A stretch of DNA of 54,628 nt. Origin: an uncultured Arenicella sp. GTDB lineage: Bacteria > Pseudomonadota > Gammaproteobacteria > Arenicellales > Arenicellaceae. Under the pieces are notes generated by a model. That model ran no database searches and was not told where the DNA came from. It was given only the letters and a program-made list of their open reading frames with translations. Made by a program: the position numbers and the translations under genes. This document shows positions 10,486 to 11,591 of this stretch, in pieces (the first letter of the stretch is position 1; each line of letters opens with the position of its first letter). The stretch covers positions 1-54,628 of the forward strand of contig CAJQNY010000124.1 in assembly GCA_905479805.1 (NCBI GenBank), written 5' to 3'.

Positions 10486-11145
10486 ATGTCTGAAAGTAAC
10501 AAAAATCATGGAAATAATTCGACCACCTCGCAACCAGAGTTGCCTGAAATATTGCGTGACCCAAAATTTGTCTTAGGTGCTGCGGAAGCCCATCAGTTTC
10601 CTAAAGACGACATCATTGAAATTGCCTTTGCCGGCCGTTCAAATGTCGGAAAATCCAGTGCTATCAATGCGATAGCTAATCGTCGCAAATTAGCAAGAAC
10701 AAGTAAAACACCTGGGCGAACTCAACAAATCAATTTTTTTACCCTAGGCGAGCAAGCAAGATTAGCGGACCTCCCCGGCTATGGTTTCGCACAAGTACCG
10801 CTAGCGATCAAGGCTAAATGGCAAAATACCATCAAGTCATATCTTTCTGAGCGAAGCAACCTGATTATATTAGTGTTGTTGATGGATATACGACACCCTT
10901 TAACTGACTTGGATTGGAATATGGTCGAATGGGCGAGCGAATCTGGGTTAGCCACTCAAATACTACTAACCAAAGCCGATAAATTTAAACGCGGTAAAAT
11001 TGCCTCTACCGTTCTTGACGTCGAAAGACAACTTTCCAGAGTAAATGGACAATTTGGTGTAGAACCTTTTTCTTCGACCAATTACACAGGTGTCAAGAAA
11101 ATGCGGACGCAGCTAGCAGAATGGGTGTCTGACAGCATTTCTTAA
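10486..11145 (+). CDS. engB: Ribosome biogenesis GTP-binding protein EngB/YsxC
   Basis: EIAFAGRSNVGKSSAINAI, RTSKTPGRTQQINFF, ADLPGYGFA, LTKADKFKRGK. Confidence 0.96.
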   Translation: MSESNKNHGNNSTTSQPELPEILRDPKFVLGAAEAHQFPKDDIIEIAFAGRSNVGKSSAINAIANRRKLARTSKTPGRTQQINFFTLGEQARLADLPGYGFAQVPLAIKAKWQNTIKSYLSERSNLIILVLLMDIRHPLTDLDWNMVEWASESGLATQILLTKADKFKRGKIASTVLDVERQLSRVNGQFGVEPFSSTNYTGVKKMRTQLAEWVSDSIS

Positions 11146-11180: not shown

Positions 11181-11209
11181 TTGAATTAGCGTCACTTTAG
11201 TTTTAAGAT
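11181..11209 (+). promoter_or_regulatory. Candidate sigma70 promoter upstream of the 11271-11357 hairpin
   Basis: TTGAAT (11181-11186), 17-nt spacer, TAAGAT (11204-11209); each hexamer matches 4/6. Confidence 0.3.
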
Positions 11210-11270
11210 TGAGGAATAGATAAAAGTTGAATGGTGCGCAATTTCAAGTGACAGCATTCATCGAAAGAAT

Positions 11271-11357
11271 TGTCTAGGGTAGACAGTCCCCCCAAACGAC
11301 ATCCCCTTGGAATACCACACACACGGTATTTCGTTTGCCCTAGACATCTTTTCTTTT
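11271..11357 (+). ncRNA. Putative structured sRNA or elaborate 3'-UTR terminator
   Basis: Three nested perfect stems: TGTCTAGGG/CCCTAGACA, CAAACGA/TCGTTTG, AATACC/GGTATT. All bulges are on the 5' side (TAGACAGTCCCCC and CATCCCCTTGG); followed by TCTTTTCTTTTTTT. Confidence 0.5.
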
Positions 11358-11591
11358 TTTATCTCCCACTCCTTTATCTCGCACGCCTTTTCAAATTCAA
11401 TCTCCATATCTAGCTCCTAGCATGTACTTAGCAGTAAGAACTTAGAGCTCGTTTGTATCCTCTCAAATATTTGCAGTTACTTATTGACCCAAACCAGCTG
11501 GAAACTCCACTACCGCTAGTATTAAATCAAACTTAAGCTCACCCGACGAGTGAAAATACTCTAACTAGATGAACCCCTAATGGAATGCATT

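Follow-up and report, generated by a model that had tools for sequence, protein, structure and literature searches.

The RNA described here lies on the + strand, directly downstream of engB, in the stretch of Arenicella DNA of 54,628 nucleotides that was analyzed as a whole (hereafter, the window). Its hairpin, at 11271-11346, begins 125 nt past the engB stop codon. The features of the locus are listed below; it should be noted that the names of engB, M14 and the other genes were assigned from sequence and synteny.

10486..11145, + strand: engB (YihA/YsxC-type GTPase), an ORF directly 5' of the RNA and outside the proposed RNA
11181..11209, + strand: promoter-like element TTGAAT-N17-TAAGAT, candidate transcription start of the RNA
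11264..11270, + strand: leader AAAGAAT, near-invariant in alignment A1; its AAGA can pair with UCUU past P1 and is paired in the minimum free energy (MFE) fold
11271..11284, + strand: 5' strand of P1 (14 bp), supported by covariation, 9 of the 14 pairs being changed on both sides among 15 species
11286..11300, + strand: P2, a 3-bp GUC/GAC stem (11286-11288/11298-11300) with the single-stranded loop CCCCCAAAC, nearly invariant in the genus; the loop is predicted to be unpaired with a probability of ~0.98-1.0
11301..11308, + strand: single-stranded linker AUCCCCUU, with a predicted unpaired probability of ~0.97-1.0; AUCCCC is retained in related genera
11309..11332, + strand: P3, the hairpin GGAAUACC-loop-GGUAUUUC of 8 bp (11309-11316/11325-11332), seen in the fold and near-invariant within the genus
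11333..11346, + strand: 3' strand of P1, covarying with 11271-11284
11347..11361, + strand: U-rich tail AUCUUUUCUUUUUUU after P1, read from the sequence

In the usual gene order, cc4 (on the opposite strand) is followed by engB, the RNA, the gene for an MpaA-like M14 peptidase lipoprotein and an L,D-transpeptidase gene (again on the opposite strand). Thirteen Arenicella loci carry the RNA on the same strand as engB and directly 3' of it, and so do g15, a genus that belongs to the same order but to a different family, and, less certainly, the sister genus G018; the M14 gene lies 3' of the RNA in most carriers. The engB orthologues of relatives within the genus share 67-78% identity.

Fold and covariation of the RNA

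A preliminary description of this DNA had proposed an elaborate hairpin followed by a U-rich tail, and both the sequence and the folding energy bear this out. The MFE of 11260-11370 is -35.1 kcal/mol, as compared with -16.3 +/- 2.6 for shuffled sequences (z of -7.3; none of the 200 shuffles was as stable). That the 3' strand GGTATTTCGTTTGCCCTAGACA (11325-11346) forms a single continuous paired segment, and that the 5' side has two unpaired, C-rich stretches, had also been correctly recognized. The nested stems of 9, 7 and 6 bp that had been drawn from these elements, however, reach only -23.6 kcal/mol on 11262-11363, as opposed to -31.5 kcal/mol for P1, P2 and P3 together. The true fold is the latter, namely a P1 of 14 bp around the 3-bp P2 with its CCCCCAAAC loop, the AUCCCCUU linker and P3. 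In the relatives, the middle 7-bp stem of the earlier fold (CAAACGA/TCGTTTG) is paired in 69.5% of cells, which does not exceed the shuffled value, and two of its pairs are disrupted in 12-13 of the 15 species. A competing hairpin that had been suggested, TGTCTA-GGG-TAGACA, is paired in 81.1% of cells, as compared with 81.7% when shuffled, and the idea of a conditional terminator is, like this unconserved fold, not supported.

The hairpin is a genuine structure that has been conserved in evolution. The RNA was found in 15 of the 18 Arenicella genomes, in a single copy each; of the other three, two have contigs that stop before the site (G007 and G009), while G004 has engB and M14 and lacks the RNA between them. 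In alignment A1, the mean identity is 84% for the core, and 27% and 22% for the flanking 90 nt upstream and downstream, respectively. The sequence from the promoter to the stem differs between relatives in both length and letters. Of all cells, 99.7% are paired; shuffling lowers this figure to 96.1%, and displacing the partners by 1-3 columns lowers it to 27-41%. Double changes that preserve pairing are seen in 9 of the 25 pairs across the 15 species, all of them in P1, such that the compensatory substitutions that the preliminary description had proposed to look for in relatives are indeed present. The P2 stem never varies and most of P3 is also invariant. As these pairs do not vary, covariation is uninformative on P2 and on most of P3. 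Among the paired cells, G-U outnumbers A-C by 26 to 1, which shows that it is the + strand that has the sequence of the RNA. Almost no variation is seen in the segments CCCCCCAAACGACAUCCCC, which represent the most conserved part of the RNA and are predicted to be largely single-stranded.

The U-rich tail is likely to serve intrinsic termination using P1. A simple terminator scan of the locus did not report P1 with its U tail, because the loop limit of that scan was 8. In three genomes (G003, G008 and G010), a second, separate terminator-like hairpin with a T run follows P1 (L034, L042 on the reverse complement; L046 at ~1575-1615). In G010, this hairpin reuses the 3' end of P1 (GGGCATCTTCCTCAAAAGAAGATGCCCTTTTT), and the two could therefore compete.

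Promoter-like elements and the transcription unit

With a scoring script, a layout of a TTGWAT-like box, a 17-nt spacer and a TATCKT-like box was found in 12 of the 13 engB-linked Arenicella loci, with the end of the -10 box lying 58-153 nt 5' of P1. Seven of the promoter-like elements reach 11-12 of 12, a score that none of 200 shuffles matched. The copy in the window is weak (9 of 12, with 57 of 200 shuffles as good) and, taken alone, is not above chance. The thirteenth locus, that of G010, has a weaker TTGAAT-N17-TATGGT, identified by eye, and no clear promoter was seen at the relocated RNA copy of G002. The M14 gene presents a TATAMT -10-like box of its own, 5' of its start, in 11 of 11 Arenicella loci examined by eye.

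The neighborhood of the RNA is not constant. M14 is gone from G005, G006 and G015 and is decayed in G008, with the RNA being intact in all four. In the engB tree, these cases correspond, with moderate support, to roughly three losses that occurred separately (G006 with G015; G008 beside G003 and G012; G005 beside G017). In G002, the RNA has been relocated away from engB together with M14 and is still fully conserved, while in G004, engB and M14 are kept with no RNA between them. From the end of the RNA to M14, there are roughly 200-450 nt in Arenicella; in g15, the RNA lies only ~60-70 nt 5' of the M14 start. The promoter-like site, the TATAMT box of M14, the M14 losses and the move in G002 thus favor an independent RNA gene over a leader of M14 or a 3' end of engB, and, as the RNA outlasts some three independent losses of M14, the best reading of it is a stand-alone, C-rich sRNA that acts in trans.

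Several side observations were made on these neighboring regions. In G002 (L122, C38), the sequence 3' of engB retains part of the promoter-like element, followed by a small ORF (MVTRVKIGDIKVQWLNAK...) in place of the RNA, which is found on another contig with M14. In G007 and G009, the 5' part of M14 contains many copies of a repeat of ~18 nt (GATGGCTCTTTGTCCGCT-like), and both contigs end inside this repeat (L119, L120, start of the reverse complement). In neither genome was engB properly matched, even though a completeness of 99% is listed for G007, and a gap in the assembly beside the repeats is the probable cause. A similar repeat, TAGCTAACGGCTCTTTATCT, comes after the RNA in G005.

Diverged copies and known RNAs

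Outside the genus, the covariance model R2 found copies in g15, with E values of 1e-5 to 1e-9 over the loci searched. In the five genomes of this genus, P1 is again 14 bp long, with a quite different sequence, and encloses the unpaired CCCCCCAACAACAUCCCC, followed by P3. The alignment of the related family has 98.9% of its cells paired and two pairs with double changes. P3 keeps its position in the related genera and differs in sequence; the genera have the layout and the C-rich single-stranded sequence in common, with the stem sequences changing. For G018, the R2 match is weak (18 bits, E of 0.005, similar to opposite-strand scores) and by score alone the candidate is uncertain. Its location, with engB on one side and M14 on the other, and its layout nonetheless support considering it, less certainly, as a diverged copy of the RNA.

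Wider searches returned candidates that were rejected. The matches of a 15-nt pattern search in the order were, beyond g15, mostly unstructured sequence, and exact matches to the core in Planctomycetes, Chloroflexi, Verrucomicrobia and one Proteobacteria have no such fold. In the named genome collection, all structured matches to the exact core were Arenicella or records of the same loci. A class-wide search of 369 genomes gave two weak matches (E of 3e-4 and 8e-4), a plain GC-rich stem and a long, nearly perfect inverted repeat, both without the C-tract layout.

The Rfam scan that the preliminary description had suggested, done here with Rfam 15, matched no family anywhere in the window, and none at E<=1 for the Arenicella locus. 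Of the known RNAs, sX13 of the Xanthomonadaceae deserves the closest comparison. Its C-rich loops act on 4G motifs near start codons and Hfq is not needed (PMC3771888). Like sX13, the Arenicella RNA has stable stems presenting C-rich single-stranded loops, belongs to the polA/engB neighborhood and is highly conserved between variable flanks. Its C-rich segments are predicted to be kept single-stranded by conserved stems, a feature of the sX13-like class. Whereas sX13 comprises three separate stem-loops and an unstructured 5' region and lies 3' of polA (PMC3771888), however, the Arenicella RNA is one nested three-way junction located 3' of engB. The single junction, the engB location and the lack of an Rfam match rule out the sX13 family proper. 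The alpha-r7 sRNAs of alphaproteobacteria similarly carry apical C-rich motifs and are polA-linked (PMC3771888), yet they consist of three stem-loops, belong to another class and are set apart by description and by the Rfam scan. ErsA of Pseudomonas (PMC8575079) and Spot 42 of E. coli and Vibrio are likewise sRNA genes of the polA-engB neighborhood. ErsA differs in being a multi-hairpin RNA with a U-rich pairing domain (PMC8575079), the Arenicella locus has no Rfam match to Spot 42, and the position relative to engB is not the same for either. In a sponge of the CsrB/CsrC type, many loop GGA motifs would be expected; here, there is one GGA, at 11309, and it is paired.

An anti-hemB-like C-rich RNA (RF02837, Burkholderia RNA 7) was detected in the region 3' of engB in g15 and g19. 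As these matches in the relatives are on the other strand and in a different place, and as the Arenicella locus has none at E<=1, an anti-hemB identity was rejected. By the features tested, the RNA represents a new family, though of a known kind, outside the sX13, anti-hemB, Spot 42 and CsrB/CsrC families.

Candidate function and rival explanations

This conserved, structured RNA after the essential gene engB in marine Arenicella is, by analogy, probably a regulatory sRNA by which other genes are turned off. In its specific form, we consider it reasonably probable that this is a stand-alone small RNA gene, whose C segments pair in trans with G-rich stretches of several mRNAs and lower their translation, as sX13 does. 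Transcription from the conserved promoter-like site would start near 11216 and end near 11357-11361, giving an RNA of ~140-150 nt. The 14-bp P1 and P3 would form a rigid three-way junction presenting CCCCCAAAC and AUCCCCUU as single strands. The targets of these two segments would be G-rich stretches of several mRNAs, located at the ribosome-binding site or close to it, with the pairing lowering translation as described for sX13 in Xanthomonas. We infer expression, the exact ends, mRNA pairing and repression, with the trans-acting role being drawn from the anatomy of the RNA and from analogy; if this holds, the RNA works like sX13. Of the earlier proposal of an sRNA with exposed C tracts, the structure, the conservation of C tracts predicted to be unpaired and, in most engB-linked relatives, a promoter-like site stand, the precise fold was replaced and the trans-acting role remains one suggested by analogy.

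Within the genus, perfect 12-nt complements of either C segment were recurrent only as the RNA's own locus, with the other sites being scattered and non-recurrent, and CAAGGGGAT adjoining an ATG revealed no recurrent gene among 30 loci read. These searches covered long complements, and this should be considered when referring to their outcome, as seeds of the sX13 type are only 4-6 nt long. The absence of a conserved mRNA from these results is also what would be expected of an RNA that binds a protein, such as a sponge for CsrA-like or other regulators, rather than acting as an antisense RNA, and a protein could recognize a three-way junction whose loop sequence is invariant. E. coli CsrC, moreover, also adjoins engB. 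As the single GGA is paired at the base of P3 and is missing in G008, the RNA is very unlikely to be a CsrA sponge; other proteins may bind, and we regard protein binding in general as quite improbable. A more tentative idea, which we consider possible but doubtful, is that the RNA defines a new family of Arenicella's order in which the three-way junction is a dedicated module for recognizing a single protein or a single small, fixed group of G-rich mRNAs, its active site being the invariant CCCCCCAA(A)C(G/A)ACAUCCCC, and that this family is evolutionarily unrelated to sX13, Spot 42, ErsA and anti-hemB despite sharing their gene neighborhood.

The neighboring genes suggest two cis-acting explanations. 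A leader of the M14 peptidase gene, serving in the 5' UTR of that gene for attenuation or for the control of translation, would agree with the engB-RNA-M14 synteny of most carriers and with the joint relocation in G002, and in g15, where the RNA closely precedes the M14 start, such a role is possible. We nonetheless hold it to be unlikely, given that the RNA remains intact where M14 is lost or decayed, that G004 has M14 without the RNA, that the gap in Arenicella contains the TATAMT box and that a U tract follows the stem. A conditional terminator or riboswitch leader of M14 was rejected, as the alternative fold is not conserved and the RNA occurs without M14. The RNA could otherwise be an elaborate 3' end of the engB mRNA, where it would terminate or stabilize the transcript and from which it might be released as a 3'UTR-derived sRNA. 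Its position on the same strand, directly downstream of engB in so many loci, and its ending in a U tract would fit; it is, however, improbable as well, as the RNA of G002 is fully conserved though away from engB, as a terminator has no need of invariant unpaired C tracts and as the promoter-like site lies past the engB stop. As for a chance structure or a mobile inverted repeat without function, only the palindromic look of the P1 arms speaks for it, and the single copy in this genome and in each relative, the covariation and the contrast in identity between core (84%) and flanks (~25%) refute it.

The locus adds a covariation-supported, well-delimited RNA family that is absent from Rfam. Our literature searches found no sRNA work on the genus Arenicella and no report of an engB-linked C-rich/G-rich RNA. 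The locus also strengthens a pattern in which unrelated bacteria hold C-rich or otherwise regulatory small RNAs near polA-engB (Spot 42, ErsA, sX13 and anti-hemB). As g15 carries both the anti-hemB-like RNA and the Arenicella-type RNA, a repeated origin of such RNAs in this neighborhood becomes testable. In family f2, the anti-hemB-like matches are found at L029:2119-2219(-), L022:2309-2417(-), L023:1388-1492(+) and L025:1341-1448(+), on the strand opposite engB, and their scores, 30-42 bits, do not reach the gathering score of 49.5.
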